A stretch of DNA of 58,437 bases, taken from positions 1-58,437 of the IMG/VR virus record IMGVR_UViG_3300037336_000026. One strand, given 5' to 3'. Positions within the stretch are counted from its first letter, which is position 1; each line of letters opens with the position of its first letter. Positions 26,164 to 58,437 of the stretch are shown here, piece after piece. The notes beneath the pieces are model-generated. The model made no database searches, had not been told where the DNA came from, and worked only from the letters and a program-made list of their open reading frames with translations. This DNA comes from a virus. The position numbers and the translations under genes are program-made.

Positions 26164-26682
26164 ATGGTCAGAGATCCTTGGGCATGGACCAAAGAAGATA
26201 AAAATAATTTCGGTAGTGTTGGTGGCCCTATGTCTGCTTCAATCCAACCATCTAACGAACAAGCACCTCCACCAGCAATGTCTACACCTGATCCTGTTGA
26301 TCAACAATTGACAAGTATGGCTCTTGGTAAGGGTATTGAGGTAACTGCTTCTGGTGTTAGTGGTGCATTAGGTTCAGGTACAGCTGCTGCAGAAGGTATG
26401 GCAACTGCTGTTGGTACTGGTGCTGCTTCAGGTGCTGGATCACAGGCTGCCATATTAGCCGCACAGAATGCAGGTATGGGAGCATTAGCTCCACAGGCTG
26501 CTGGTCTGACTGCTCAAGCATTAGGTGCAGGTACAGCCGCTACTACTGCAGCTACTACGGGTGCCGTTGCAACAGGTGCTGGTGCCCTAGGTGCTGGGGG
26601 GACCGCTGCTATGGCAGCACTAGGCCCTGTCGGTTGGACTATTGGTGGTCTTTTGCTTGCTAAAAAGTTTGGACTATTCTAA
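26164..26682 (+). CDS. internal virion/ejection protein 2 with hydrophobic C-terminus
   Basis: 172 residues, two bases after the previous gene. Very rich in Ala, Gly and Thr from residue 50, with repeated ATGAGALGAG-type stretches and a final hydrophobic segment (MAALGPVGWTIGGLLLAKKF) that may insert in a membrane. Likely part of the ejection complex with its neighbours. Confidence 0.55.
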   Translation: MVRDPWAWTKEDKNNFGSVGGPMSASIQPSNEQAPPPAMSTPDPVDQQLTSMALGKGIEVTASGVSGALGSGTAAAEGMATAVGTGAASGAGSQAAILAAQNAGMGALAPQAAGLTAQALGAGTAATTAATTGAVATGAGALGAGGTAAMAALGPVGWTIGGLLLAKKFGLF

Positions 26683-26692
26683 GGAGAATCAT

Positions 26693-29098
26693 ATGGATAA
26701 TATTGGACCGTTGTCTACACGACAACAGTTAGACGCTCTTAAGATAGAACAAGAAAGAGCAAAATTACTTAGGCAACAAGCCGAAGCACAAAGATCGGTT
26801 AATAAAATAACTGCAGAAGTACCTAAAGCAATTGAACCTGTTCCACAAGTACCTCAGACTTCTACTCAACCTTTTGATGATTCATTACTTGGTCATATGA
26901 TTAATCAAGAAAGTGGAGGATACCACAGAAACCCTAAGACAGGAGAACTAACAACGCCACCTGTTAAAAAAGGAGAAGTCCCACCTAAATACCCAGCTAA
27001 AGGTATTTTACAATGGAAAGGGGATTCAGCAGCACAACCGGGATATGGTACTACCCCCTTTGATGTTAACACAGCAGATGAGAATACCCAAATCAATGCC
27101 TCTAGACAATACATGACTGGACTTACAAAGGCCTTTGATGGTGATTTAGAAAAAGGATTAGCTGCTTATAATTTTGGCCCAGGAAATCTCAAAAAACATA
27201 TTGCAGCTAACGAAGCAAAGGGTTTAGATTGGAAGGTAGGATTACCAAAAGAAACAGCTAATTATGTCAGTAATATTATGGGTGAGTATTCTTCTGGAAA
27301 TCCTAATGTAGGATCTCAGGTACCTCCTGTTTATCGAGCTTCCATTAATCCAAGAGATACTATGAAAGTGCCGCCAGTAGGCCCGATAGATGAGACTAGT
27401 CTTGTTAGTGTACCTCCACAATCAATGCCTACTGAATTGGAAGTCCGAGCAGCACATCTAGATATCAGAGATAGTAGCAATCTTGTAAAGAGAGCTAAAG
27501 CTCAGATGGTTATAGATAGAGCTAATGGTGTTGAATCATCTCCCGGAATGATTAGGGCTGCTACTTCCAACTTCTCTCCTCAACTACCTAGTACAATTAA
27601 ACCTATGACCGAAGGGGATAACTCTAGTGGTGGTATTGATGCAGCTGATGATCCAGAAGCTCAGGCATTTGCCCCTATCAGTACTAACAATCTCTTAGTA
27701 GTACCTCCATTACAAGATAATGCAGATCAAGTAACACCAGTTACAGTAGAGAGTGGGGTTGTACCACCTCTTGATGAAACAGATTTACCCCCACTGACAT
27801 CAACACAACAAAAGACTATAGATAGCCTAGGTGCTGCTGGTGGCACAGTAAACCCTGCGTCTATAGCTGACACCTTAGTAGGCGTAAGTGGTGACTCTAT
27901 TATAGGTGGCCCTAATTCAGGTAGCGAAGAAGACAAAGCTAAATTACCTGATACATTCTGGAAAGAGCTATCTAAATCATTTAAAGACTTATTTACAGAT
28001 AAAGAGTTTATTAGGTTTGGTATCTTGTTAGCCGGTGGTATGCTTACTGGTGGCTCATTCGGTGGTTCACTTAAGTACGCTGGTTTGTATGCTCTTCAAT
28101 CTGCTGATAAAAGAGAAGCCGTTACAGCTGCTGCTACAGTAACAGCTAAGGCTGCTGCTGCTAAAGACCTAAGTGATAGAGGGAATGCTATTGATAAGAG
28201 TCTCGCATCTGCCTTAGCTAATACAAGTATCCCTGATAATCAGAGGAACTTTGCACTTCAGCAAATGAGAAAGAATGATACTTTACCTTTGGAGCAACGT
28301 GTAGCTGCTAACTTAGCTCTCTTAGAAGGACTCAATTCACTAGCTACTAAAAAAGAGGGTTATAAACCAATACAAAGAGTGGTTGACGGGACAATTACAA
28401 ATCTATATAAAGACCTAGATAACGGTACATTCTCTACAAAAACAGAAGACGCTAAAGGTAATGTAAGCTTTACTGTTGTTCCTAATACACTAAGTGTTGA
28501 TGATTTTACAACCTTAAATAGTGACGTTAAAGGTGCAGTATCATCAATGGTTGGTGCTTTATTAGACCCTGAGCTAAAGAACGCAAACGATATTAAAGAT
28601 AATATTGCTCAACAAACTTTAGATACTACTACTCACATGACAACATATGGTAGTACTATTCAGGCTAGAGATGTAGCTCAGATGGCTAAGGTTGCTATGA
28701 ATACTGTTGGTACTTACAGAGCTGGAATGGACTACGCAGAATGGTCGTCTAAATATGTTGGTGCCTTGTACACTCAAGCTGCTGTTCGTATAGCCCCAAC
28801 TAGAAAAGAATTGTTTATGAATCCTGAAGGGCTCCCCTTATCAGCACCTGCTTATGCCAGAATTAGAACTGAGTTAGCTGGTGATAAGTTAGAACCGGGC
28901 CTTGCTAGACTAATAGGTGAGTACGAAAAATACCGTGACAATGCATCTACTACTAAGGTAGATATTACATTACCAAACAATGGTTCCTTAAAGGTGCCTA
29001 AGGATGTTGCAACATACTTAAATCAAAACAAAGCAGAAAGTCCGTTAACGGCGTATCTTCATTTGCGTAGTCTAGGTAAAGTAGGCAAAGTAAATTAA
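26693..29098 (+). CDS. ejection protein 3 with lytic transglycosylase domain
   Basis: Start at ATG 26693 behind AAGGAGAATC; the in-frame extension upstream overlaps the previous gene. 801 residues. Residues about 60-170 form an SLT-type transglycosylase: catalytic Glu in MINQESGG, the AKGILQW element in place of the usual G-L/M-Q, and the closing AAYNFGPGNLKKHI. T7 gp16 likewise carries such a domain to open peptidoglycan during DNA entry. The rest is proline-rich linker followed by long helices (from about 430) with one hydrophobic patch (FGILLAGGMLTGGSFGGSL). Confidence 0.8.
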   Translation: MDNIGPLSTRQQLDALKIEQERAKLLRQQAEAQRSVNKITAEVPKAIEPVPQVPQTSTQPFDDSLLGHMINQESGGYHRNPKTGELTTPPVKKGEVPPKYPAKGILQWKGDSAAQPGYGTTPFDVNTADENTQINASRQYMTGLTKAFDGDLEKGLAAYNFGPGNLKKHIAANEAKGLDWKVGLPKETANYVSNIMGEYSSGNPNVGSQVPPVYRASINPRDTMKVPPVGPIDETSLVSVPPQSMPTELEVRAAHLDIRDSSNLVKRAKAQMVIDRANGVESSPGMIRAATSNFSPQLPSTIKPMTEGDNSSGGIDAADDPEAQAFAPISTNNLLVVPPLQDNADQVTPVTVESGVVPPLDETDLPPLTSTQQKTIDSLGAAGGTVNPASIADTLVGVSGDSIIGGPNSGSEEDKAKLPDTFWKELSKSFKDLFTDKEFIRFGILLAGGMLTGGSFGGSLKYAGLYALQSADKREAVTAAATVTAKAAAAKDLSDRGNAIDKSLASALANTSIPDNQRNFALQQMRKNDTLPLEQRVAANLALLEGLNSLATKKEGYKPIQRVVDGTITNLYKDLDNGTFSTKTEDAKGNVSFTVVPNTLSVDDFTTLNSDVKGAVSSMVGALLDPELKNANDIKDNIAQQTLDTTTHMTTYGSTIQARDVAQMAKVAMNTVGTYRAGMDYAEWSSKYVGALYTQAAVRIAPTRKELFMNPEGLPLSAPAYARIRTELAGDKLEPGLARLIGEYEKYRDNASTTKVDITLPNNGSLKVPKDVATYLNQNKAESPLTAYLHLRSLGKVGKVN

Positions 29099-29112: not shown

Positions 29113-32100
29113 ATGATAGAAGAAGATAAAAAAGATCCTGGCCCACAGGTAAAATTTATTGATGGGAAGCCCGTAGGTTCCTCTTACAGTATAGATGCTG
29201 ACACAACAGTTGTTGATGATCAATCATACCGTATACAAGGCTTTAACGCTTTTGAGACTGCTAAAGATAAAGCAGGAATAATTGTTCCTAACCAATATCA
29301 AGGTGATAGGACACAAGAGTTTGTAAATAGGTTCGCAGAAACGGGTGAGTTTGATCGTCTTAATACGAAAGGTCAAGACCCTGCATTTAAGAATCGTGTA
29401 CTAGCAAGGCAAGTCAATCTTGAAGGAGAAGACTTAGCCTCTGTTATGACCTCTCTTGGCGTAATTGACCCTACTGCTTTCTCAAACCCTGAAGATATTA
29501 ATAACTCAATTGCTAGTGGTAGTATTAGTAGGTTGTTTCCAACAGCAGACAGTACAGATCCATTAAGAGCACTCGCTAAGGAAAAGAAAGACTATGATAA
29601 GGCACAAGGCGTTAGATGGGAAAAGACCTCTAACGTAGCCTCACCAGCAGAGTACAAAGCATTTCAAGATGCTGTTGGCGCTACAGCTGCTGCCACTGCT
29701 GCTACTGAAGTTGAAAGACTCAATGAGGTACTGGCAACAGAAGAAATGAGCGACTCCACAAGAAGTCTCCTCACTACCCAATTAGAAGAGGCAAGAGGAA
29801 GGGTCTTATTTGCTGCATTAACTCCTAGAATTATCGGTGGAGTTAACTATCAACCTAACGATAGAAACATTATGAATAAAGCTACTGGCTTTATTAATCA
29901 ATCTTACGCTGCACTTAACGTTGCAACGACAATGTTCGTTAAGGGTATTGGTGGTGTATTAGAGATGGCTGGTGAAAAAGGTCAGTGGGATTATATAAGC
30001 CAGAAGGGTAAAGAATACCAATTAAAAGCTGAACTGTATGATGCAGACACCCCATCTTACGTTGCTACAGTTTCTGATATAGATACAAGTAATCCATTTT
30101 CTGCAGTAGCAGATACTGGTTTGTTCTTATCTAACAACCTTATCACAATGATTCCGTTGTGGACTTCTGCATTAGCAGCTGGTGGCGTTGCTGCTACCTT
30201 AGGGGCTCCTGCAGTTGTAGCAGCCGGTATATCTGTGTTACCCGGATGGTTAACATATACTGGTGGTATGTATTCAGACCAACCTGAAGGTGAAAAGAAC
30301 CCAGCTCAAGCCTCCTCTTTTGGTTTGTTTGCTTCTGTTCTTGATAGGTTAGGTATTGAAGCTATCTTTGCTAAGGGCGCAAGTAGCCTCCTTACTAAGA
30401 AAGGCTTAGATGAGATGGTAGCGATTGTAGTTGCTAAGAAGGGAGTTACTCCAGAAGTAGCTAAAGAACAAATTGCAACTATAACTAAGAAAGAACTTAT
30501 CGAGACTGCCAAGTTTAGTAGTGCATTTGCAAAGTCGCAAGTAGCTACAATGGCATATGCAACTAAAGCTCTTGCACGTATATCAGCTGCTGGTATTACT
30601 GAGGGTGTTACTGAGACTGCTCAGAGTGCCTTAGAACTTATTGCAGCTACTGGACAATGGAACTTAGATGCTAGGTACCAAAAGGATTTCAACAAGCAAT
30701 TGGTTGATTCCTTTATTGCTGGTGGAGCTATCGGTGGTGTTATTACAGGAGCTGGTGAGGCAAAGACCTTAGCACAACTACATTCAGCTTATGATTATCA
30801 CAGGACTAATACAAGAGATCTAGATGATAACCAAAAAGCACAATTATCTCTTGAAGAAGAATATAACTCTGGATCATTGCCCGGCATTGGTACTGAGTTT
30901 AATACCTTTAACGTAGCTAAGGGTATTCAGTTACAGTCTCATGATTTTATATCAGGTAATCCTAGGAACGCTACTGATGCAGTTAAGATGACTAACAAAG
31001 AAGGCTTTATTAACATACTTACAGATGGTTTTAGACTATTAAGAGGTCATGCTAATCAGATGACTAAAAAGCTTTATAATGCTGACGGTAAATTTCTGAG
31101 AAATAGAGCTGTTATTAAATCGCTTATGTCAGGTATGGGTATAGTTCCGGGTCAACCTTACAGTGGTTTTAAAAGATCACTACTAGGTGAGTGGGCTGCA
31201 AAGCATACCAGCTCTGCAAATATTTCTGCGGAAATGAATATGAGTGAAGTAGAATCTGGTAACGTTATCCTAGATGCTTATAGAAGATTTTGGTCTAAGG
31301 GGTTAGATACACCCGTAGAACATCCTAACTTTGAAGCATTGAACAGGTATCATAGTGAGTTGGGTAACATGCAAAGAACAGCTAGGGGTATGGCTAATGA
31401 GTCTGGCGTTTCTAGTTCTTTGATTGATAATCTTGATTCCCTCTTTGTTCCTGAGATAGATAAACATACCTTCAATAAAAATAAAGATACCATTATTGAT
31501 AAGTTAATGGCACAAGGTATGCCAAGGAGTGAAGCTAATAAAACAGTAGAGAATATTTTCTCTAGTGATAAAGGAAAAATGAGAGATGCCTCTGAAGCAA
31601 TTGCTAATGCAGGTTTATTTAGAGATCCTGAATTAGATCATATCTTTGAGAAGAACTTCTTTAGATCATTAGAAGGTATTAAGGAAAGATTAGCGGCTAA
31701 CATAGCTATCAATAGCTACTACGGTAAAGATGCAGAGATTCTTTATAAGTTAGCGGACATGGCAGATCAGAATGGTGAGTTCTCTAGTCCAGAAGAAAAG
31801 CAAACATACCTCAGTGAAATTAAAGATTACTTTGATATGATTGAAGGTAAGTATAACACATTAGATAATTACCCAGTAATTAAAAATGTATATGCATGGA
31901 CAGGAACCTTGACAATGTTAGCTATGCTAGGTAAGGCAGGATTATCCTCGTTACCTGAGGTTGCATTGTCATTGCTAGGCACAAGAGGAGAGAAGGTAGG
32001 AGACCAATTAGGCTTATGGGCTAAGAATATGCTTAGCGAAATTGGCGATGATGCATTTACTCGTAGTAACTCATTTGTTACTAGTGCTCTACGCATATCT

Positions 32101-33339
32101 AAATTAGGTAACGTAGCTCTTAAGACTCAAGATATTAAGCTTGCAGAACAGATTGCTGAGATAGAGGCCGCGCTAAAAGTAGCTCAGGCTGTAAAAGGTA
32201 ATGACAAAGAGCTTGATGCTATTGGTGTTAAACTGGATAGTTTGTATGAAGAATCTATTGGAAGAACTTTATTTGAAGATCTTGGATTTGCAGAAACTGG
32301 GTTTAACACTCAGTCTAGATTCGAGTATGCAGACAACAGTATGCGTAATGTTATGGGCTTATTCGCAAAGATAACCTTACTTAAGCAAACTACTGAGTCT
32401 ACTCGTATGGCTGCTATATCTATGGCATCTGATACGGTGGCATCTTATGTGGAAGCACTTAGAGGTGTACCAGTCGAAATGTTTAGGACTGGTAAGGGGC
32501 TAACTAAGTTCCAATACCAGGCATTAAAAGAGTTACAAGCATACGGTATGAATGTACCTGATGTAATGTTTTATATCGAAAATACAGAAAGCGGTGAGCT
32601 TAATTCATTGTCTTCAAGATATGAAATGTTTGTACTTAAGGGTAAAGAGGATGTAACTGATGTACCTTTTAATAGTTTCATGAGAAATATTAATACGGCT
32701 GTATCAAACATGGTTGATTCAAACGTTCCTAACCCACAACCACATAACATTCCTAAGTATTATCATGACCCTAGGTTTAGGATTATAACCGTTATGACAA
32801 GGTACCTTGCAGCACTGCAAACCTCAGTCATACCTAAGTTATATAATGATTATATTAAAGATGGTAATGTAGGTATGCGTTATCAAGCGTTCTCAGTTAT
32901 GGTTGGTGCAATGGCTCTTGCTGGATTGGCTAATGGTTTAAAAGATCAATTATCTTACGGAGAAGACAGCCCATATATCAATGGTATAATGAAGAATGCT
33001 CAAAGAACCCTATATGGTGCAGGTTTATTAGGTCGTGGTGAGGTTATTGTAGATGCAATGGCTCCACTATACAATCGTAAAGGCGTTAGCCTAAGTGATG
33101 CAATGAGTCCCGGTAATGATAGAAGTACTATCGGTGGCTGGGTTTATGACACAGCTAAAAGCAATATGGCACCAGTCGCATGGGCTGATAGGTTTGTTAG
33201 AGCAGGTAGTGCTATATCTGATGGTGACTACCCTACAGCTGGAAGACAACTTGCAAGGGCAATGCCTTTAATCGGGTCTGTACCTAGAACATACGATGAA
33301 CTAGAAGAATTATTTGTAAATTCACTTAAGGAAAAATAA
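29113..33339 (+). CDS. large ejection protein with N-terminal SNase-like domain
   Basis: 1,408 residues. Residues about 15-118 follow the staphylococcal nuclease (SNase/TNase) pattern: IDADTTVV (D28, D30, T31), SYRIQGFNAFET (R40, E48), then NRVLARQVNLEGEDL (R95). Compared with the model enzyme, the equivalents of D21, R35, E43 and R87 are kept but D40 is Asn and T41 is Ala, so activity is uncertain. A hydrophobic region at about 335-385 (LITMIPLWTSALAAGGVAA) could cross the membrane. The remainder is helical. Position matches the big internal core protein of podoviruses. One base separates it from the next gene. Confidence 0.72.
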   Translation: MIEEDKKDPGPQVKFIDGKPVGSSYSIDADTTVVDDQSYRIQGFNAFETAKDKAGIIVPNQYQGDRTQEFVNRFAETGEFDRLNTKGQDPAFKNRVLARQVNLEGEDLASVMTSLGVIDPTAFSNPEDINNSIASGSISRLFPTADSTDPLRALAKEKKDYDKAQGVRWEKTSNVASPAEYKAFQDAVGATAAATAATEVERLNEVLATEEMSDSTRSLLTTQLEEARGRVLFAALTPRIIGGVNYQPNDRNIMNKATGFINQSYAALNVATTMFVKGIGGVLEMAGEKGQWDYISQKGKEYQLKAELYDADTPSYVATVSDIDTSNPFSAVADTGLFLSNNLITMIPLWTSALAAGGVAATLGAPAVVAAGISVLPGWLTYTGGMYSDQPEGEKNPAQASSFGLFASVLDRLGIEAIFAKGASSLLTKKGLDEMVAIVVAKKGVTPEVAKEQIATITKKELIETAKFSSAFAKSQVATMAYATKALARISAAGITEGVTETAQSALELIAATGQWNLDARYQKDFNKQLVDSFIAGGAIGGVITGAGEAKTLAQLHSAYDYHRTNTRDLDDNQKAQLSLEEEYNSGSLPGIGTEFNTFNVAKGIQLQSHDFISGNPRNATDAVKMTNKEGFINILTDGFRLLRGHANQMTKKLYNADGKFLRNRAVIKSLMSGMGIVPGQPYSGFKRSLLGEWAAKHTSSANISAEMNMSEVESGNVILDAYRRFWSKGLDTPVEHPNFEALNRYHSELGNMQRTARGMANESGVSSSLIDNLDSLFVPEIDKHTFNKNKDTIIDKLMAQGMPRSEANKTVENIFSSDKGKMRDASEAIANAGLFRDPELDHIFEKNFFRSLEGIKERLAANIAINSYYGKDAEILYKLADMADQNGEFSSPEEKQTYLSEIKDYFDMIEGKYNTLDNYPVIKNVYAWTGTLTMLAMLGKAGLSSLPEVALSLLGTRGEKVGDQLGLWAKNMLSEIGDDAFTRSNSFVTSALRISKLGNVALKTQDIKLAEQIAEIEAALKVAQAVKGNDKELDAIGVKLDSLYEESIGRTLFEDLGFAETGFNTQSRFEYADNSMRNVMGLFAKITLLKQTTESTRMAAISMASDTVASYVEALRGVPVEMFRTGKGLTKFQYQALKELQAYGMNVPDVMFYIENTESGELNSLSSRYEMFVLKGKEDVTDVPFNSFMRNINTAVSNMVDSNVPNPQPHNIPKYYHDPRFRIITVMTRYLAALQTSVIPKLYNDYIKDGNVGMRYQAFSVMVGAMALAGLANGLKDQLSYGEDSPYINGIMKNAQRTLYGAGLLGRGEVIVDAMAPLYNRKGVSLSDAMSPGNDRSTIGGWVYDTAKSNMAPVAWADRFVRAGSAISDGDYPTAGRQLARAMPLIGSVPRTYDELEELFVNSLKEK

Positions 33340-33340
33340 A

Positions 33341-36300
33341 ATGGCTTTATTTGGTAATATACGAAACAGGACGGCACCTGACGCTCGTAACTTAAATATC
33401 CCTCAACCAAGAACATCTCAAGGAGAGATGGACGCACGTTACGGGGATGTTCCTCTCCCAGCAGTTTCTTCAGTAGACGAAGCTGCAAGAAGCATAATGG
33501 AATATGGAGGTGTTCCTCCACAAGCGTTTGGCTTACCACCTGTACCCGCACAAGCTGTTGGTACTCCCCTAGATCCAGATCCGCTGGCTAGGCGTGACCG
33601 TGAAATACCTAATCCAGCAACTAATGACTTATCATTGCTTGATCAAGAGCAAATGCAGAATCAAAGTGTACCTGTAAATCCTGAAGATTATTCAAGGCAG
33701 TTCTTAGATGAACAAGCTAAAGAAAAGGATTTCCAGCAAGGCTTTGAGGCTATGCAATCAGTTGTTGATCCTGCTACTGGCCAAAGAATGCCCGGTGACT
33801 TTACAAAAGCAGCTGAGTTAATCTTAGGTGAAGGTAATGAGAAAGCAAAGTATCTATCTCCCGGAGAAGCTGAAAAGTATGCTGCCACGGAAACACAGAT
33901 TAAGAACGCTGCTGACCGTGTATCTTCACCACTAGCTTTAATCTCTGAAAGAGCTAGACAAAATCTCTTATCATCTAGTAGTATGGTATATGATTCGTCT
34001 AACCCTGATTCACGACAAGCTAAGGGTTACACCTTAATGCTAGCAGAGGGCTTCGAAGATTCTGAGATGGAGACAGTAGCTGATATGGCAGGTATTGCGT
34101 CTTACTCTGCTTTGTCTCAGATCCCTAGGGCAAAGGCAGATGCAGAAGAAGATGTAGCTGTAAACCCAAATACAGGAGTTATTAATTACGATAACGTAAT
34201 TGCTAGCGGTACTCACTTCATGAAAAATATGGCCAAGACTGTTGGCTTACCTGAACCAAGTCCCGGTTTCTTTGAGAGCATAATGGCTACTCATTTTCAA
34301 GCTGAAGTACAAAAAGGTAGCTATGCTCTTAACCGATCTGCGGATGGTAAGATAGAGTATCTCCCTACTGATGCTCAGAAAATTATAGCTAGGAAAGTTG
34401 GTACTGTTGCTAGGATAGCTACAGCTAGGCTTGGTAGGAATGTTTCATCTAGAACACCCCAAATTGTTGGATCAGCCCTTGGTGAGAAACAAACATTCAC
34501 TAAGAGGTCTCTTACAAGCAACTCTGTATTAGGTAGAGACCTAGATACCTCTGCTGCGGAGACTGTAAAGGACATGATGGGTAGTGTAAGCTATCGCTTC
34601 TTACCTTCTCATGTAGCTCTGCAAGAAAAGTTTATGACAGCTATGTTGTCACCTGAGTTCCTAATTAACTCTCCGGATGAAGGTGTATACTCTACTCACT
34701 ACATGGCAGAGCATTATGGTCTTTCCCAGAAAGACTTTAATAAGATTAAGAACAATCAATTACCTCCTAGAGATGAAGCTAAAAGAGTAGGTTGGTCTCC
34801 AATACCGGCTGCTGTTAAGATAATGAACAACATTATCAAGCAGAAGGGTATGGTCTTAGAAGCAATTAAGGGTGCTGAAGGTTTAAGGTTCGCTGAGATC
34901 ATGCACTCAATCATGAACCATCGTTACTTTATTAATAGTTACGATCTTGATTACATGGGTTCCAAGGATATGATTCGTGATATCCTTAACTTCGGTGAAA
35001 GAGATATCGTGTATGGTAAATCGCTTTTCCCTAATGATTTGAATTCTTCTTTAGAGAATGACAGACTTAAATCAGAGGGTCTAAAGATCTTCAAGATAGA
35101 AGATGGTGTAGCAAGAGGGAAAGCCCTTGAGAGTCTAACTCCAGATAAGCTTGGTGCCTTAGGTACAATGATTGATGCTGTACTGAACTATCATACTGTT
35201 GTTAAGCCTTTACCTGATGTACTGAAGATGCCTGATAGAGATCTTATTGGCCTTTACACACCAGAGCTAGCTAACGCGTTAGCAGACTTAGGTGGTCAGT
35301 ATAACGCCTATATAAACGATCCAGAAGGTGATGCTAATAATAAACACAATAACATCTTAACTTACTTAGCAGCAATACCTAAAGGAGAATTCCTTGCTAA
35401 TGCTGCTTTGTGGGATGATATGTTCCAATTGAAGAATGATGCAGCTAACCCTAAGAGCAATAAGCTTGGTAGGTCTATTACTCATACAACAATTAGTGAT
35501 GGTACTCAGAGTGGTTTGTTTATTCAGGCCTTCCAACACGGTAACAGTGAACATGCAGATCGTCTTGGTAGAGCTAAGTATGCCGATGAAGAGCGTGCTC
35601 CAAGAGACCTTCGTGATGCTACTATGGCATCTATGATTGAAGAAGTAGATAGGATTAACCGTAAGAGTGGTACTATTGAGGACTCTAATACTGCAGATGC
35701 ATTTAGTGCTTTCTTTGCAGAGCTACCTGATGTATATCGAGGTGATTACCATGCGATGGCGAATGAGTTCTTTAAAGCGCCATTGATGCAAGTGTCTTAC
35801 TCCAAAGATGCAGGTATGTTTCAAGGTTTCTTGGAAGACACATTATCAAGGACTAACATAGAACCCTTAGTATCTAAGTACTTGTTACCTCACTTTGGTT
35901 CATTATCTGATGCTGCTGCTAGCCTTAATATTTCTTTAGAGAATGTATTAAGAGAAGCTATATCTACTTCAGTTAGGAAGCTACAGGATATTGGTTATGG
36001 TATGGCAATACTTGATAAACCACTGGTTTATAAGAGTATAACAGGTGATGATGTCCTTATCAGCCCTGCTGGTTTAACCACAATACCAAAGACTGTAGAC
36101 TATAACTCATTTACTACTGGTAAGCATGGCTTTAAATTCTTAGCTAGTGGTGTTGAGACAATTGATTTTATGGTTGACGATGGTAGTGGTATGCTGACTA
36201 GTAAGTCTATACCCCGTAAGATGATGGGGCTATTGCCTGGACATGCCAAGCCTGTTCAATACTACTGGGATAACCAAGCAAAAGTATATAGACCTTATAA

Positions 36301-37459
36301 AAGCTTTGCAGGTAGTTCTTTGTCCAGAGAAGCAGCGGTAATGCCTACACAGGCTATCGATGCAGCTTGGATTACATTAACTATGTTAGAAGTAAATAAG
36401 GGAAGATCTAAACCAAGACCAGTTTCTTGGGTACACGATTCAATTATATCTACTGGTGGTCAGGGCCTTATCTATCGTAACGCTTATAACAATATAACAA
36501 TACCTAGGTCAATTAAGACTGTTGCTAAAACTAATGGTGATATTTATAATGCCTACAAAGAAGCTAAAGCACAGGAGCTAAGGCTTATTAAAATTAAAGG
36601 TGTGGTTGGTATAGGTTCTGATGGTCAGTACGAATCTATGGGTGGTTTCTTTGATAGCATGTTCTATCAGTTCGAACCTATGAGTGAGTACAAAGCAATC
36701 TTCCTAAAGAGAAGAAATAGCAGTGGTGCTATGCGTACTGAGCTAGATTGGAATAAGAAAGTACTACAGGTTAACAAAATCCTTGATGAAGCAATCAATA
36801 ATGGATATGTACCTCCTAACCTTGTCCCTGAGTCTGAGCGTAAGAGCATGGCAGTTAATGCAACTGAGTATGAAGCCTTACTAGGATTGTTTGAGACAGT
36901 TAGAGGCATTAGCCCTAGAGTACTACAAGCATGGGCTGATAATTCAGAAGCTAAGGGTATTGAGGCCGGAAAGTTCCTTATTAAGAGAGCTAAATACGGT
37001 GGTATTATACAGATGGCACCTAGTGGTGGTGCAAGGCCAATGTTATCTTCTATGATTACTGAATCACTTGCTTCAGCTAAGAAGCCAGTAACACCCTTTA
37101 AGTTTGCAGCACCAGTAGCAGCTGAAGTGGTTGAAGAAGCACCTGTAAAAGCTAATAGTAGAGCCGGTTTACTTGAGCAAGCTCAACGTGATACTAAGTT
37201 TACTGATGAAGCTACAGAGGTTGATGAAGTACCTGCTGTAACTAGTGGTGATGATATCCCTACAAATGATTCTATATTAACAGACAAGACAAAACCTATA
37301 AGCTTAGTTGACCTTGTTAATCATATAAAATCTAAGAGCCTAATCCCTACTGCTGCAAATACTAACTCATATTTACTTGATCTTAGATTAAAAGGATATG
37401 ATGTTAGCAGTATTACTTATGATGATGTAGACAACTTCTTCAGTAATATACCTATCTAA
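33341..37459 (+). CDS. putative virion RNA polymerase (N4 vRNAP-like single-subunit type)
   Basis: 1,372 residues, last gene of the ejection block. In order I see: motif A-like ISDGTQSGLFIQA (D720); motif B-like FKAPLMQVSYSKDAGMF (K812, Y820, matching T7 K631-x7-Y639); motif C-like VSWVHDSIIS (D1033). Spacings are 92 and 221 residues; T7 has 94 and 181, and N4 vRNAP has larger ones. A DYMGS at 537-541 could be the T/DxxGR loop without its Arg, but that is doubtful. Long N- and C-terminal regions flank the core, as in N4. If right, the polymerase is injected with the DNA to transcribe early genes. The alternative is another ejection protein with chance motifs. It ends at a strong terminator. 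Confidence 0.6.
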   Translation: MALFGNIRNRTAPDARNLNIPQPRTSQGEMDARYGDVPLPAVSSVDEAARSIMEYGGVPPQAFGLPPVPAQAVGTPLDPDPLARRDREIPNPATNDLSLLDQEQMQNQSVPVNPEDYSRQFLDEQAKEKDFQQGFEAMQSVVDPATGQRMPGDFTKAAELILGEGNEKAKYLSPGEAEKYAATETQIKNAADRVSSPLALISERARQNLLSSSSMVYDSSNPDSRQAKGYTLMLAEGFEDSEMETVADMAGIASYSALSQIPRAKADAEEDVAVNPNTGVINYDNVIASGTHFMKNMAKTVGLPEPSPGFFESIMATHFQAEVQKGSYALNRSADGKIEYLPTDAQKIIARKVGTVARIATARLGRNVSSRTPQIVGSALGEKQTFTKRSLTSNSVLGRDLDTSAAETVKDMMGSVSYRFLPSHVALQEKFMTAMLSPEFLINSPDEGVYSTHYMAEHYGLSQKDFNKIKNNQLPPRDEAKRVGWSPIPAAVKIMNNIIKQKGMVLEAIKGAEGLRFAEIMHSIMNHRYFINSYDLDYMGSKDMIRDILNFGERDIVYGKSLFPNDLNSSLENDRLKSEGLKIFKIEDGVARGKALESLTPDKLGALGTMIDAVLNYHTVVKPLPDVLKMPDRDLIGLYTPELANALADLGGQYNAYINDPEGDANNKHNNILTYLAAIPKGEFLANAALWDDMFQLKNDAANPKSNKLGRSITHTTISDGTQSGLFIQAFQHGNSEHADRLGRAKYADEERAPRDLRDATMASMIEEVDRINRKSGTIEDSNTADAFSAFFAELPDVYRGDYHAMANEFFKAPLMQVSYSKDAGMFQGFLEDTLSRTNIEPLVSKYLLPHFGSLSDAAASLNISLENVLREAISTSVRKLQDIGYGMAILDKPLVYKSITGDDVLISPAGLTTIPKTVDYNSFTTGKHGFKFLASGVETIDFMVDDGSGMLTSKSIPRKMMGLLPGHAKPVQYYWDNQAKVYRPYKSFAGSSLSREAAVMPTQAIDAAWITLTMLEVNKGRSKPRPVSWVHDSIISTGGQGLIYRNAYNNITIPRSIKTVAKTNGDIYNAYKEAKAQELRLIKIKGVVGIGSDGQYESMGGFFDSMFYQFEPMSEYKAIFLKRRNSSGAMRTELDWNKKVLQVNKILDEAINNGYVPPNLVPESERKSMAVNATEYEALLGLFETVRGISPRVLQAWADNSEAKGIEAGKFLIKRAKYGGIIQMAPSGGARPMLSSMITESLASAKKPVTPFKFAAPVAAEVVEEAPVKANSRAGLLEQAQRDTKFTDEATEVDEVPAVTSGDDIPTNDSILTDKTKPISLVDLVNHIKSKSLIPTAANTNSYLLDLRLKGYDVSSITYDDVDNFFSNIPI

Positions 37460-37955: not shown

Positions 37956-38032
37956 TGGTGCGCCCAGAGAGATTCGAACTCCCGACCCACGCCTTAGAAG
38001 AGCGTTGCTCTATCCATCTGAGCTATAGGCGC
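37956..38032 (-). tRNA. tRNA-Arg (UCU anticodon)
   Basis: A 77-base cloverleaf including a genome-encoded CCA end. Acceptor GCGCCTA/TGGGCGC (one G-U), D arm GCTC/GAGC, anticodon stem ACGCT/GGCGT with loop CTTCTAA giving anticodon TCT, variable loop GGGTC, and T arm GGGAG/CTCTC with TTCGAAT loop. It reads AGA codons (and AGG by wobble). Most phage genes here use AGA heavily, so the tRNA probably offsets a low supply in the host. Confidence 0.95.
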
Positions 38033-38106: not shown

Positions 38107-38124
38107 TTTTACTATTAGGTACCG
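38107..38124 (-). promoter_or_regulatory. putative phage promoter for tRNA operon
   Basis: On the minus strand CGGTACCTAATAGTAAAA. The core overlaps the end of nrdB: GTACCTAA supplies its last two sense codons (Gly fragment, Thr) and the TAA stop. It faces the tRNA and the two small genes at the end of the arm. Confidence 0.7.
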
Positions 38125-39095
38125 ACTATTTCTAGTTCAGGAGCTTTACTCCATCCCCAGTCACCACCCATACCGTTAACAGAGTATTCTGTAACACGCT
38201 TCTCGAAGAAGTTATCATGAGATACACCGTTGAGTACCCAGTCCAACCAAGGTAATGGGTTATCTTTTACTTTGAAGTTAGGTTTAAGACCTAGCTGAAT
38301 GAGTCGGCGATCAGTAATGTAACGAATGTAATCCTTAACCTCTTCTTTAGTAATACCTTCAATAGCATGGTTAGAGAAGGCAAGGTCAACAAACTTATCT
38401 TCAAGGGAAACAATATCCCTAGCAATCTGGTAGATCTTAGCCTTGAATTCATCATTGACAACACGAGGATGCTCATTACAGAACTCACGGAACAATCTTG
38501 CGTTACCTTCTACGTGGATTGTCTCATCACGGATAGACCATTCAACAACTGTACCCATACCCTTCATCTTACCGAAGCGTTGTAGGTTAAGCAGCATAAC
38601 GAATGAAGCAAACAAGGATACACCTTCATTGAACACAGACTTGGCTAATGCTAGGGCTAGACCTGAATGAGTGCTGCTGTCTGATTGTGACATAAACTCA
38701 ATCTTATCAGCCATCTCTGAGTACTCAAGGAACTCGTGGTACTGCTCATCAGGTAGTCCCAATGTATCATTCAACAGGGCATAAGCTCGTTGATGTGTAC
38801 CCTCACGACCTGCAAATGAACCAAGCATTACTCGTACTTCATTGTTCTTAAACTTAGGGATAAGGAAGTCATAATAGTTTTGACCTACCTGTACATCGCC
38901 TTGTGTAAACAAACGGAGAATGTGAGTAATAAACTCTTTCTCATCTTTGTTAAGCTTAAGCTTCCAATCATTAATATCTTCTGATAGGTCAGCTTCGTCC
39001 TCGACCCAGTGGATTTCCTCATGGGTCTTTGTTATAGCTACAGCCCATTCATGGTTAAATGGTTTGTAGGTCTTTGCGAAATTCATTAACGACAT
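38115..39095 (-). CDS. nrdB: ribonucleotide reductase class I, beta subunit
   Basis: Generates the radical needed by NrdA to make deoxyribonucleotides. 326 residues. Di-iron ligands are visible as D in TQGDVQVGQNYY, ExxH in REGTHQRAY, E in FNEGVSLFASF and ExxH in RDETIHVEG. The tyrosine four residues after the first ligand His (QRAY) is in the place of the E. coli radical Tyr122, so a standard tyrosyl-radical enzyme is likely. It follows nrdA by 6 bases in one operon driven from 41.13 kb. Confidence 0.93.
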   Translation of the reverse strand: MSLMNFAKTYKPFNHEWAVAITKTHEEIHWVEDEADLSEDINDWKLKLNKDEKEFITHILRLFTQGDVQVGQNYYDFLIPKFKNNEVRVMLGSFAGREGTHQRAYALLNDTLGLPDEQYHEFLEYSEMADKIEFMSQSDSSTHSGLALALAKSVFNEGVSLFASFVMLLNLQRFGKMKGMGTVVEWSIRDETIHVEGNARLFREFCNEHPRVVNDEFKAKIYQIARDIVSLEDKFVDLAFSNHAIEGITKEEVKDYIRYITDRRLIQLGLKPNFKVKDNPLPWLDWVLNGVSHDNFFEKRVTEYSVNGMGGDWGWSKAPELEIVGT

Positions 39096-39101
39096 TTACT
39101 T

Positions 39102-41090
39102 TTATCCTTCACATGCGAGACATTCATCTGACTCGGTGTTTGTTATTTGGTTTTGTAAGTGGTTACTTAGTTCAGTAAACCCACCAATGTATTCTCCCTT
39201 CAGGTATATCTGAGGTACTGTTCGAACGTCAGGGCGTCCTGTAATTTCAGCTGCAGTCTTACCTTCAACTTCAATATCGATATATTCATACTCAATATTA
39301 TTAAAGGCAAGTAAACCTTTAGCGTTAGCACAGTGAGGACAATTATCCTTACCGTATACAATAGTTCTTTTCTCTTCAATTAACTTATTAGACTCTACCT
39401 TCTTAGATACATTCTCTGCACGAGCAGTTGCCTCAGTACGTAGATAGTATAACCCTTTAAGGCCTTTTTCCCAAGCAGAGAGGTGTACCTTATTAACATA
39501 GGCACGATCAGCACCAGAGGGAAAGAACAAGTTAACAGATTGCCCTTGGCAGATATAACGTTGACGTTGACCTGCTAATTTAACAATATCCATCTGATCA
39601 ATCTCAAAGCTTGTGGCAAATACTTTCTTTGTTTGGTCATCTAAGAAGTCTAAGTGTTGTACTGATCCACTATTAGTGATGATGTTACTCCACACTTCCT
39701 GTGTATTCTTACCAAGAGCTTCTAGTACATCCTTAAGATATAGGTTCTGTACTAAGAAAGAACCAGCACGAGTACGATGAGTATAGGCATTAGCTTTATT
39801 AGGCTCAATACAAGGGGAAGAACTGATTATAATGCTACTAGAGGCATTAGGAGCGATAGCTAGTAGGTGCGCATTACGCATACCGGTACCCACCATATCA
39901 GGAGCTTCTCCACGCTCACCTGCAAGCAACCTGCTAGCCTGTACAGCTGCTTTCTTGATGTAAGAAAACATCTCTTCATTCATAACTACTGAATCTTCAC
40001 TACCAAAGGCAACATTATTACGTTGTAAAGCGTTATGAAAACCCATAGCACCTAGTCCAAGAGACCTTTCTCTTGATGCAGAGTACTTTGCTCGATACAA
40101 AGCAGGAGGGCAATTCTCAATAAAGTATTCGAGTACGTTATCAAGCATAGTAATAAGGTCTGCAATCATTGTGCTACCAACCCAGTCACTATAGTGCTCT
40201 AGATTAACTGAGCTTAAACAACATACAGCAGTACGGTCTTCGTTTGTTACTAGGTGAATCTCATTACAAAGGTTGCTACCATTAATAGATAGACCTAGAT
40301 CCTTCTGTGCTTGTGGTAAAGCCTCATTAGCAGTATCAATAAAGTTAAGATAGGGTTCTCCGGTACGGAAACGGGTTTCTAGAAGCTTCTGCCATACAAC
40401 TCGTGCATCTAACCATTCACCGGTGTTACCCTTCTTAGGGTCGATAAGTTCATATTTAGTTCCTGCTTTTACAGCACTCATGAACCCATCAGTAATATTA
40501 ACAGCATTATGAAGGTTGAAGCACTTACGATTGACATCCCCCGTTGGGATCCTGAGACCGATAAACTCCATAACATCAGGATGATCAACGTTAATATAAG
40601 CAGCATAAGAACCTTTACGTGTTTTACCTTGGCGATATGCCGTCATATCCGCATCTACCGTATGTAGAAACGGGATAGGGCCGGGAGCAATATCCGATAC
40701 ACCTCGTACATCACTCCAATGGCCACCCACACCACCTCCCATAACAGAGAGTAAGCGTAGTTCAGAGCTGTGATCAATAAGACCCTCAATTGTGTCAGGA
40801 ACATACGTTAAGAAGCATGATATTGGTAGACCTTTGGCCTTGTTCGATGAGTCAGGGGCATTAGAAAGAACAGGACTGGCGAACATAAACCAGCCCTTCG
40901 ATACATAGTCATACAAGCGTTGAGCTAACGCTTCATCTCTTATACCTTTAAAATTACTCCATGCCCAAGAAGCACGAGCAAAAATATCTTGTGGGGACTC
41001 CTCACCTTCTTTAGCGTAGAAGTCCATTAACATATCCTGTGAGTAGTCAGCTAGTTGTTTATCACGTTCATAGCTAATTTTAATGTTCAT
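39102..41090 (-). CDS. nrdA: ribonucleotide reductase class I, alpha subunit with inserted glutaredoxin
   Basis: Catalytic subunit, 662 residues. Active-site parts: GLPISCF (first Cys), SNLCNEIHL (Asn-Cys-Glu), AVCCLSS, and GLYYLRTE (radical-transfer tyrosines). There is no N-terminal ATP-cone, so dATP feedback is probably absent. Between the barrel and the usual C-terminal redox tail (DECLACEG, C657/C660) is a complete glutaredoxin domain at about 574-645, with CPHC active site, TVPQIYLKG cis-Pro loop and YIGGFTEL. It can thus be recycled within one chain. A phage promoter precedes it. Confidence 0.93.
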   Translation of the reverse strand: MNIKISYERDKQLADYSQDMLMDFYAKEGEESPQDIFARASWAWSNFKGIRDEALAQRLYDYVSKGWFMFASPVLSNAPDSSNKAKGLPISCFLTYVPDTIEGLIDHSSELRLLSVMGGGVGGHWSDVRGVSDIAPGPIPFLHTVDADMTAYRQGKTRKGSYAAYINVDHPDVMEFIGLRIPTGDVNRKCFNLHNAVNITDGFMSAVKAGTKYELIDPKKGNTGEWLDARVVWQKLLETRFRTGEPYLNFIDTANEALPQAQKDLGLSINGSNLCNEIHLVTNEDRTAVCCLSSVNLEHYSDWVGSTMIADLITMLDNVLEYFIENCPPALYRAKYSASRERSLGLGAMGFHNALQRNNVAFGSEDSVVMNEEMFSYIKKAAVQASRLLAGERGEAPDMVGTGMRNAHLLAIAPNASSSIIISSSPCIEPNKANAYTHRTRAGSFLVQNLYLKDVLEALGKNTQEVWSNIITNSGSVQHLDFLDDQTKKVFATSFEIDQMDIVKLAGQRQRYICQGQSVNLFFPSGADRAYVNKVHLSAWEKGLKGLYYLRTEATARAENVSKKVESNKLIEEKRTIVYGKDNCPHCANAKGLLAFNNIEYEYIDIEVEGKTAAEITGRPDVRTVPQIYLKGEYIGGFTELSNHLQNQITNTESDECLACEG

Positions 41091-41138: not shown

Positions 41139-43337
41139 TTAGCAAAAGAAATACTTTGATTCCATTACATCGATTAAATCTAAACTTCCTAGCTCAGGTT
41201 GTGGTAGAGTGAATGACACTTTGTTATTCATTAGTGTACCTTGTATAACATCAAAGAAGTTTGATACATCATACTGAGCAATGAAAGTCATCTTAGTTAC
41301 TTCCTGTAGAAAGTCCACTCCGGAGGCATGTGTACTGAAGCTATCATGTACAGCTGCAAAGCTTGCATCAAATACATTAATAGTGTTAGCCATATGAGCA
41401 GCATCATAAGAGTGGACAACATTGGGGCTAATACCTGAAGCAAATGATCTACGGCAAGGTACTTTTTCACCTGTATCTTTGTTAAGTACATCCACTCGGA
41501 TAACGTGCATGACACGCCCGTCTTTATTACCGACAATACCTTTGATAGTGCCTCTTTGTTTACGTTCATGTTGTAAGAATGCCTTATATATTACAGGAAA
41601 GCCACTAGGGGTATGCCAATCTAATACGTTACGACCTGAGTTAATCTCATGCTCAACTATCTTTTGCAGATACTTAGTGGTCTTTAACGGGCCATTACAT
41701 ACTGAGTTAATAGCCTTGATAAGATTACCTGACAGCATATTACAATCATCTTCTGTGATGTTGTATTTAACTGTGAAGCCTTCTACGTGGCAGTCATCAT
41801 ACATATTCTTAGAGATACGTTTCTTACCAGCCGAGTATGCACGAGTCATTGAACCTCGTTTAGCGATACCCTTACGAATGTCTTTCATAGGCATACCCTT
41901 ACTGGTAAACCAATCAGGCATTGTAATGATTAGTTCCTTAGCTACAGCTACATAGAAATCTTTTTGGATTTTAGTAGGTACTAAAGAAACTAATTCACCT
42001 GCTTGCTTGTCTTTAGACATAGCTGCTAGGTGCTGCCAACCATTATTACTACCATCAATAGGTATAGGTAATCTAGAGTAATAGTCACCCTTAGAGCTCA
42101 AACATTTAGTTATATCGATACATGCTGCCAAGAAAGCATAAGGCTTTTCTGAGTCATTTATAACCTTTAGATCATTAGCACAACTAATTATGAACTTTAA
42201 ATTCTCCTTAGCCCATGCCTCTCGATCTTCTAAGGTCATCTTATCTACACTAATAGTTTCTAATCCCTCTTCCTTGAGGTAATCTACATAATCAGTTGAT
42301 AACCAATCGATATCTTCTAGCTGATCGATATTGTATGATGCATTGTAGCTATTAGCAGCATGAATAAGCATCCATTTAAAACCTTCTGGAGTAACTTTCT
42401 CCTCGTTATTAAACAAGAACAAACTACGAGACAAGTCACTACCTTGGAACTCCAAGAATGACTCAGCATAATAGATACGACCTCGGTAGTCACATGAAAC
42501 TTCTTGGTAGAAGGTTCTGTCACCAACCATCTCAGCCTTCTTAACTACCTGCATATACTCAAAGTACTTAGAGATCATACGCTGTAGCTTAGGATCTTTC
42601 TTTCCCATGAAAGTAGTACCATCAAGGTGATTAAGCTGCTTAGGTAAATGTAGGTTCTCATGATGTACGTTGTACTCATATAGTACTCCGTCTTCATCTG
42701 TTAACTCTATAATTTCCTTAGGTTTATTATTTTGCATAGCCTTAAGCACATCTAAGTTTAACTTCCAACCTTGCTGTCTTAAAGTTTCAAGAGCCTTAAC
42801 AAAAGGTTTGTCTAAGTACTCATGGAATAGCTTACTGTTAGACCATCCTTTAATGAATGGATCTTTAGTAATACCACTGTACAAACCAGCAATAGGTAAC
42901 GGAGCTTCAAACACAGTACCAATAAGTACTGGCTTAATGTCGTCAGCCTGATTAACAATACGCACCATGTACGGTGCCTTCTGTCCTTCATACTCGCGGA
43001 AGATATCTATCAACCCATCTTGAAGGAATGTTTCTAAGAACAAGTCACCAAGACTTAAAGTTGTTTTGATATTAGTATCATCAACGCCGATAGAACGGGC
43101 GATCCGCTTTCCAATGAGATCACTTGAAAAAGTGAGCTTAACTGAGGCGGTAAACTTGGAGGTTTTATTACGGATACAGTAACGTAGGAGTGTGTCCCAT
43201 GATTCATCTATAAGTCTTTCTAATTCATATTCCCATGTGGGATGGTGTGCTAATAGTCGAGCACCCTCATTATAAATCTTATCTGAGTTTACTACGACTT
43301 TAGATACGCGTTCGGATAAGTATTTTAGTGGATTCAT
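41139..43337 (-). CDS. T7-like single-subunit RNA polymerase
   Basis: 732 residues, shorter than T7 (883) mainly at the N-terminus. Landmarks: DYRGRIYY (T/DxxGR, D283-R287), motif A PIPIDGSNNGWQH (D428), motif B AKRGSMTRAYSAG (K493, Y501), motif C AAVHDSFST (D665), and an aromatic C-terminus (YFFC) comparable to the FAFA end of T7. It would recognise the GGTACCTAATAG promoters and transcribe middle and late genes. The gene follows the primase-helicase gene with no gap, so it starts low in the middle transcript and can boost its own supply. Confidence 0.93.
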   Translation of the reverse strand: MNPLKYLSERVSKVVVNSDKIYNEGARLLAHHPTWEYELERLIDESWDTLLRYCIRNKTSKFTASVKLTFSSDLIGKRIARSIGVDDTNIKTTLSLGDLFLETFLQDGLIDIFREYEGQKAPYMVRIVNQADDIKPVLIGTVFEAPLPIAGLYSGITKDPFIKGWSNSKLFHEYLDKPFVKALETLRQQGWKLNLDVLKAMQNNKPKEIIELTDEDGVLYEYNVHHENLHLPKQLNHLDGTTFMGKKDPKLQRMISKYFEYMQVVKKAEMVGDRTFYQEVSCDYRGRIYYAESFLEFQGSDLSRSLFLFNNEEKVTPEGFKWMLIHAANSYNASYNIDQLEDIDWLSTDYVDYLKEEGLETISVDKMTLEDREAWAKENLKFIISCANDLKVINDSEKPYAFLAACIDITKCLSSKGDYYSRLPIPIDGSNNGWQHLAAMSKDKQAGELVSLVPTKIQKDFYVAVAKELIITMPDWFTSKGMPMKDIRKGIAKRGSMTRAYSAGKKRISKNMYDDCHVEGFTVKYNITEDDCNMLSGNLIKAINSVCNGPLKTTKYLQKIVEHEINSGRNVLDWHTPSGFPVIYKAFLQHERKQRGTIKGIVGNKDGRVMHVIRVDVLNKDTGEKVPCRRSFASGISPNVVHSYDAAHMANTINVFDASFAAVHDSFSTHASGVDFLQEVTKMTFIAQYDVSNFFDVIQGTLMNNKVSFTLPQPELGSLDLIDVMESKYFFC

Positions 43338-55700: not shown

Positions 55701-56102
55701 ATGTCAGGTGGAAAATCAAGAAACGTTAATTCATTAGCTAACCTGAAGCTCATAACTTCAGAGACAGCTAGGATTAACCAAAAGAAAAGCACTCAGTCAC
55801 GACTAGCAAATATTCAAGCAAGAGAAGCTTTCAAATTCTCTGCTAAGAACTTTGCACAGGTCATGAAGGATTTACCAGAAATGTCCTCGTTGGATGTTAT
55901 CAAAATGGCTATGCTGCAAGCCCTTCAAGAGGATAACATTGAAGATGCAGCTCGTTATGCTAGTATGCTAGCAGAATACCAAGCACCTAAGCTACAGCGC
56001 ATAGAACAGAACACTACTACTAGGATATCTGATATGTCTGATGAAGACTTACAGAAGATTATTGATCAAGAAGGTCTTAAGAAAAACCTACCCGAAGAAT
56101 AA
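55701..56102 (+). CDS. putative terminase small subunit
   Basis: 133 residues; the only plus-strand gene between 37.5 kb and the right end. Helical protein: basic N-terminus (SRNVNSLANLKLITSETARI), central helices (MSSLDVIKMAMLQALQEDNI), then AEYQAPKLQRIEQNTTTRIS and an acidic DMSDEDLQKII tail. The 'Y.APKL..IE' element followed by an acidic tail is typical of small terminases that have a DNA-binding N-terminus and TerL-binding end. Its own promoter and terminator isolate it as a late cassette. Placement by pattern; moderate certainty. Confidence 0.6.
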   Translation: MSGGKSRNVNSLANLKLITSETARINQKKSTQSRLANIQAREAFKFSAKNFAQVMKDLPEMSSLDVIKMAMLQALQEDNIEDAARYASMLAEYQAPKLQRIEQNTTTRISDMSDEDLQKIIDQEGLKKNLPEE

Positions 56103-56713: not shown

Positions 56714-56851
56714 CTCTCTAGATAATACTCTCTAGATAATACTCTCAGGTTATATTCTCAGGTTATATTCTCAGGTTATATTCTCAGGTTATAGTTCCCT
56801 GTTAATAGTTCCTTGTTAATAACTATCTATTAATATTATCTATTAATAACT
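56714..56851. repeat. degenerate 13-14 bp tandem repeats, candidate replication origin
   Basis: About ten head-to-tail units in four sub-types: TCTCTAGATAATAC twice, TCTCAGGTTATAT four times, GTTCCYTGTTAATA twice and TATCTATTAATA twice. All share a T-C/T-rich start and a TTAATA-like end. The stretch is very AT-rich and non-coding, lies directly downstream of a phage promoter, and no gene occupies it. T7's main origin is likewise an AT-rich region just after RNA polymerase promoters. Confidence 0.6.
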
Positions 56852-57098: not shown

Positions 57099-57160
57099 AT
57101 TATCGGACAAACAAGCCGAGATTATCGGACAAACAAGTCGAGATTATCGGAGAATAATTC
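57099..57160. repeat. 22-bp direct repeats upstream of 68-aa gene
   Basis: ATTATCGGACAAACAAGYCGAG occurs at 57099-57120 and 57121-57142 with one difference, and a third partial copy (ATTATCGGA) starts at 57143. They fill the gap between two early genes. They may be operator or initiator binding sites; no protein can be assigned. Confidence 0.7.
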
Positions 57161-58248: not shown

Positions 58249-58401
58249 TTATATGAGCTTAAAGCCGTTGAGATAGTTAACAAAGCTGATGCGCTTACGG
58301 CGGAGAATAGCGGTTAGTAGAAACCCCCATACGTCCGCGTCGTCTTTGTACGGGAACACAAGGTACCAAGTACCGTATACACGTTTTAGTTCTGTTTTCA
58401 T
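58249..58401 (-). CDS. 50-aa hypothetical protein spanning the genome junction
   Basis: ATG 58401 (MKTELKRVYGTWYLVFPY) behind AAGGAG, stop TAA 58249. Basic and aromatic. Its 5' part lies inside the terminal repeat, so a truncated copy appears at 1-137. The same frame being complete only here shows that the two window ends join in this gene. Function unknown. Confidence 0.65.
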   Translation of the reverse strand: MKTELKRVYGTWYLVFPYKDDADVWGFLLTAILRRKRISFVNYLNGFKLI

Positions 58402-58437
58402 CATAGTCTCCTTAGTAGATGATTACTTCGTATTGCT
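58265..58437. repeat. right copy of terminal direct repeat
   Basis: Repeats bases 1-173 with two transitions (58311 and 58430). The final 26 bases are the 3' end of a second copy of the 35-aa gene whose complete copy is at 148-255. Confidence 0.9.

Follow-up and report, generated by a model that had tools for sequence, protein, structure and literature searches.

The final gene of the virion block in an aquatic phage genome raises the question of whether it encodes an RNA polymerase (RNAP) and, if so, whether this enzyme is of the type that phage N4 carries in its virion. The window analyzed here is the whole of IMG/VR virus record IMGVR_UViG_3300037336_000026, 58,437 bases in length. A direct terminal repeat of 173 bp with 2 mismatches was found (1-173 and 58265-58437), and because these ends are near-identical, the record probably represents the complete genome, its ends being redundant or variable. 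The plus-strand virion block is convergent with a minus-strand replication block, and the gene in question (33341-37459, +), a single ORF of 1,372 aa without interruption, is the last plus-strand gene of the former.

Directly upstream lies the gene of a T7-gp16-like ejection protein of 1,408 aa (29113-33339, +), and before it that of an 818-aa virion protein with an SLT transglycosylase domain and one cysteine (26642-29098, +), probably a further ejection protein. The convergent replication block contains a separate gene for a single-chain T7-type RNAP of 732 aa with 10 cysteines (41139-43337, −), which matches phrog_414 "RNA polymerase" (E 2.5e-95). A tRNA-Arg(TCT) gene (37956-38032, −) is located between the 1,372-aa ORF and NrdB; NrdB and NrdA together occupy 38115-41090 (−), and the C-terminus of NrdA is thioredoxin/glutaredoxin-like.

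We considered membership of Schitoviridae, with its genome of about 75 kb, giant virion RNA polymerase (vRNAP) and heterodimeric RNAPII, and rejected it: the record is 58.4 kb with near-identical ends and has a single-chain T7-type RNAP and no giant vRNAP. The phage is placed outside Schitoviridae.

Motifs, relatives and predicted fold

The 1,372-aa protein contains ISDGTQSGLFIQA from residue 718, with the motif A catalytic aspartate D720 (35498-35500, +), FKAPLMQVSYSKDAGMF from residue 811, with motif B residues K812 and Y820 (35774-35800, +), and WVHDSIIS from residue 1030, with the motif C catalytic aspartate D1033 (36437-36439, +). The spacing from motif A to motif B is 92. When the protein was shuffled 2,000 times, the ordered three-motif pattern never appeared, and of the 217 other ORFs from related loci that were 700 aa or longer, only 3 contained it, all members of what we call the bridging family, which occupies the same genomic position as the polymerase gene. 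These results, together with the decoy profile scores given below, rule out a chance motif match.

Searching Pfam, PHROGs and PDB with the 1,372-aa protein as a single sequence gave nothing useful, and the family profile, run with hmmsearch on PDB sequences, returned only chance matches (uteroglobin fusions). Direct search identified only one annotated relative, gp33 of Roseobacter phage CRP-7, which is labelled hypothetical; when family members were compared with phage records by tblastn, CRP-7 or nothing came up, and a scan of GTDB genomes yielded zero prophage relatives. By scanning viral contigs with growing alignments, we collected 91 ORFs, corresponding to 52 non-redundant sequences including the window protein, with pairwise identities down to about 15%. 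Informative matches for this family came only from profile-profile and fold comparison.

In the aligned relatives, D720 (49/49), Y820 (49/49) and D1033 (50/50) are invariant. Position 812 is K or R in all 49, being K in the window protein and R in 12, and CRP-7-type members have Arg in place of the motif B lysine. Across the rows of the polymerase and bridging families, R528 and R546 are kept in 51/51 and K542 in 45/51 (34922-34978, +). Nine loci (L047, L040, L079, L080, L045, L085, L046, L041 and L056) form a divergent subfamily, in which motif A reads D-[MA]-[NS]-SAG and FDN replaces HD[SA] at motif C, nearer the FDG form of N4. The bridging family itself comprises three unannotated minus-strand ORFs of 1,211-1,273 aa (L089:6627-10436, L090:7499-11131 and L093:6222-10040), marked by the sequences VEVDGISNG, FLKPPMMTLPYG, PIFDA and NPQ..K..R.

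We modeled residues 181-1260 with AlphaFold2 from an alignment of 47 sequences (pLDDT 85.8, pTM 0.85). In a Foldseek search of PDB, the best 50 listed matches were all single-subunit RNAPs or complexes of them, including yeast mitochondrial RNAP (8c5u, E 2.9e-13), T7 RNAP (8dh3, 1.4e-11) and N4 mini-vRNAP (2po4, 5e-10). The TM-scores were moderate, about 0.4-0.5, as expected for distant members of a superfamily. Matches in a viral structure library were phage RNAPs, including the predicted or annotated virion RNAPs of phi50-12 and RD-1410W1-01. In the model, D720 is on a strand, K812 and Y820 are on a helix or at or just after its end, and D1033 is in a beta hairpin. This predicted secondary-structure placement resembles that in the T7 and N4 enzymes; active-site distances were not measured. 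The model thus predicts a single-subunit RNAP with a right-hand palm/fingers fold.

An earlier sequence-only reading had claimed the three motifs, their residues and the spacing of 92, all of which held exactly, and had taken the protein for a single-subunit RNAP. It would have been refuted by a profile-profile search without a polymerase hit, or by a structure prediction in which the catalytic residues do not come together in a palm/fingers fold. Both analyses were run, and neither refutation was met: the profile search found N4 mini-vRNAP, and the PDB fold matches are of the palm/fingers type. The claim of a single-subunit RNAP held.

Relationship to the N4 virion polymerase

We built an N4-side profile from 11 N4-like mini-vRNAPs; the P-values given here apply to single comparisons, not to database searches. 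The polymerase family matched this profile with P 1.7e-6 and a score of 70.6, while 59 shuffled decoys scored at most 20.3 and the reversed control 19.6. The bridging family matched both the polymerase family (P 6e-13) and N4 (3.9e-12), and when it was added to a joint profile, the match to N4 mini-vRNAP reached P 4.4e-11 over residues 287-1080, in line with a core at about residues 290-1080. Against the T7-type RNAPs of the same phages, the profile P of the polymerase family was only about 0.1. By profile score, the polymerase is therefore N4-type rather than T7-type.

The profile alignment pairs R528, K542, R546, D720, K812, Y820 and D1033 with N4 R424, K437, R440, D559, K670, Y678 and D951, respectively. 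In N4, R424 belongs to the TX2GR motif, and K437 and R440 bind the initiating nucleotide (PMC4496689). The TX2G part of TX2GR is not conserved in the polymerase family, its Arg being R528. Also not conserved is the equivalent of N4 R666, an Arg four residues before the motif B Lys, which is N808 in the window protein and K or S in most relatives.

The family of the upstream 1,408-aa protein matched the N4 vRNAP N-terminal domain (P 2.1e-6, score 69.1, decoys at most 23.1) through residues of about 286-562, and showed no match to the N4 vRNAP polymerase domain or C-terminal domain. The matched N4 domain is likely membrane-spanning. The model of the upstream protein was of low confidence (pLDDT 66), and its named fold matches include internal virion proteins of T7-like phages. 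No significant profile match was found between the polymerase family and the N4 C-terminal domain, and the HExxH motif present in that domain is absent from the nine large plus-strand proteins tested. The ejection-protein gene is directly upstream of the polymerase gene in 74/74 loci where both were recognised, and in 80/80 loci the opposite strand carries the T7-type RNAP; these counts include contigs fetched repeatedly and are not all independent. A lineage outside Schitoviridae thus holds the N4 vRNAP N-terminal and polymerase domains as two adjacent genes, with no detectable C-terminal domain.

Neither the polymerase (0/1372) nor the upstream protein contains a single cysteine, as is also the case across 11 N4-type vRNAPs. 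Per 1,000 aa, the polymerase family has 0.18 cysteines and the upstream family 0.06, compared with 15.4 for the T7-type RNAP of the same phages and 19.1 for the primase; within the window, the values are 17.2 for the minus-strand block and 3.8 for the remainder of the plus-strand block. We infer that this depletion fits proteins that unfold for passage through the tail. Absence of cysteine alone is insufficient as proof of ejection, because the whole structural block is fairly cysteine-poor, as virion proteins generally are. In the StenR_269 paper, protein size, helix content and the absence of cysteine are the only grounds on which a vRNAP was proposed; since homology evidence is lacking there, we do not count that proposal as prior art for this family.

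Proposed role and rival explanations

We consider it very likely that the 1,372-aa protein is an unfused N4-type vRNAP that is injected and starts early transcription. Homology, the predicted fold, conserved catalytic residues, gene order and cysteine depletion are shown. Packaging, ejection, activity, promoter type, the temporal programme and the use of single-stranded DNA are inferred; packaging and injection have indirect backing from gene position and cysteine depletion. Several points speak against the proposal: for no relative did we find proteomics of virions, transcription data or an enzyme assay, the R666 equivalent is not conserved, CRP-7-type members have Arg at motif B, the right 10 kb shows no surplus of N4-like promoter hairpins, the structural block as a whole is fairly poor in cysteine, and single-sequence searches of PDB and Pfam were empty. 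According to this proposal, the polymerase would be made late alongside the structural proteins and packaged in few copies. It would be ejected via the short tail together with the gp16-like protein, which would cross the inner membrane and substitute for the N4 vRNAP N-terminal domain. After refolding in the cytoplasm, the polymerase would act on the incoming DNA and transcribe its first genes, which are probably those running leftward at the window's right end. With this done, the phage could produce the T7-type polymerase that it encodes, which would serve the next stage. An injected enzyme would explain how transcription starts before the T7-type polymerase is made.

The protein might instead be an active RNAP that is not packaged, being expressed late from the structural operon and acting, for instance on late genes, within the cell that makes it. 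The absence of proteomics and the possibility of more than one RNAP per phage leave room for this. We find it unlikely, given that the gene ends the virion block and adjoins that of an ejection protein matching the N4 vRNAP N-terminus, and that the family is nearly cysteine-free (0.18 per 1,000 against 15.4 for the T7-type RNAP). Less likely still is a virion or ejection protein of RNAP descent that is no longer catalytic and serves DNA entry in a purely structural way. The unconserved R666 equivalent and the K-to-R change at motif B in CRP-7-type members speak for it; against it, D720, Y820, D1033, R528 and R546 are invariant in aligned members and K or R is at 812 in all, and since such constraint persists at the lowest identities in the family, a working active site is expected.

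That the protein arose by late duplication of the T7-type RNAP in the same phage, and is not N4-type, is all but excluded. The two belong to one superfamily, motif C has the T7-like form HD[S/A], and the A-to-B spacing is close to that of T7, which is 94. However, HDA at motif C is also seen in several Schitoviridae vRNAPs, and profile comparison gives P 4.4e-11 with N4 mini-vRNAP but only about 0.1 with the T7-type family. Regarding the preferred reading, an injected N4-type vRNAP, the sequence-only reading held in calling the protein possibly N4-type. The second, T7-type polymerase that it claimed (41139-43337) was confirmed. Its size claim, 1,372 against about 3,500 residues, held and is now accounted for, because the counterpart of the N4 vRNAP N-terminal domain is encoded by its own gene upstream, and a C-terminal domain was not detected. 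Injection and a two-polymerase programme remain consistent and inferred. It had held that only N4-like viruses are well known for injecting such an enzyme; an N4-type core is now seen in a lineage outside Schitoviridae, with injection inferred.

Known systems and candidate regulatory sequences

The giant vRNAP has been described as a hallmark of, and unique to, Schitoviridae (PMC10925440), where the enzyme occurs only within one giant protein. Like N4 gp50, the window polymerase has a single-subunit core with equivalents of the seven N4 residues listed above, lacks cysteine and closes a structural block that converges with the replication genes; a homologue of the gp50 N-terminal domain lies just upstream. 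Unlike the Schitoviridae enzyme, a giant chain of about 3,000-3,600 aa, it has its N-terminal domain in a separate gene, no detected C-terminal autoinhibitory domain and no conserved R666; the RNAPII of Schitoviridae is heterodimeric, whereas the window phage has a single-chain T7-type RNAP. CRP-7 gp33/gp34 (MK613349), both annotated only as hypothetical, belong to the same family and share the gene order, the convergent T7-type RNAP and tRNA-Arg(TCT). They differ in identity (about 26% in the best segment) and in the motif B Arg, and CRP-7 has an adenosylcobalamin-dependent RNR instead of NrdA/NrdB. In the consulted passages of the CRP-7 paper, a T7-like polymerase alone is mentioned (PMC6918029). 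The tape-measure-fused vRNAP of P23-45 and those of crAss-like phages are likewise virion-carried and tied to another large protein, and P23-45 also has a second, non-virion RNAP, but their two-barrel fold is related to cellular RNAPs and unrelated to the T7/N4 fold (PMC10770324).

The N4 vRNAP catalytic core is thus found in another lineage, represented by about 50 non-redundant sequences from metagenomes and by a single cultured podovirus, CRP-7, in which the proposal is directly testable. The family would represent a compact natural vRNAP of about 1,200-1,370 aa, with packaging and activity inferred, and it offers a way to connect T7-style ejection proteins with the N4 enzyme in evolution. 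A bolder reading, which we regard as slightly more doubtful than credible, is that the unfused state is ancestral and that a stand-alone injected polymerase and a T7-gp16-type ejection protein later fused into the giant vRNAP of Schitoviridae. If so, these widespread aquatic phages would inject a free polymerase with neither membrane tether nor autoinhibitory domain.

We searched the right 10 kb for N4-like promoter hairpins (stem of at least 6, loop of 3) and found no excess, with 4 seen against 4.4 expected. The 12-mer GGTACCTAATAG has six exact copies (20284+, 38112−, 49649−, 55661+, 56167− and 56868−) and a further copy with 1 mismatch upstream of NrdA (41121−). The copies are mostly intergenic, upstream of genes and oriented with the next gene, and one also precedes the lone plus-strand gene at 55701-56102. 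The 12-mer is likely a promoter for one of the phage polymerases, T7-type or virion, which of the two being undetermined. In addition, a 13-bp unit (AGGTTATATTCTC) repeated four times in tandem and a 22-bp unit repeated twice were observed at 56734-56804 and 57099-57142; they precede leftward genes close to the right end and are possible regulatory sites.
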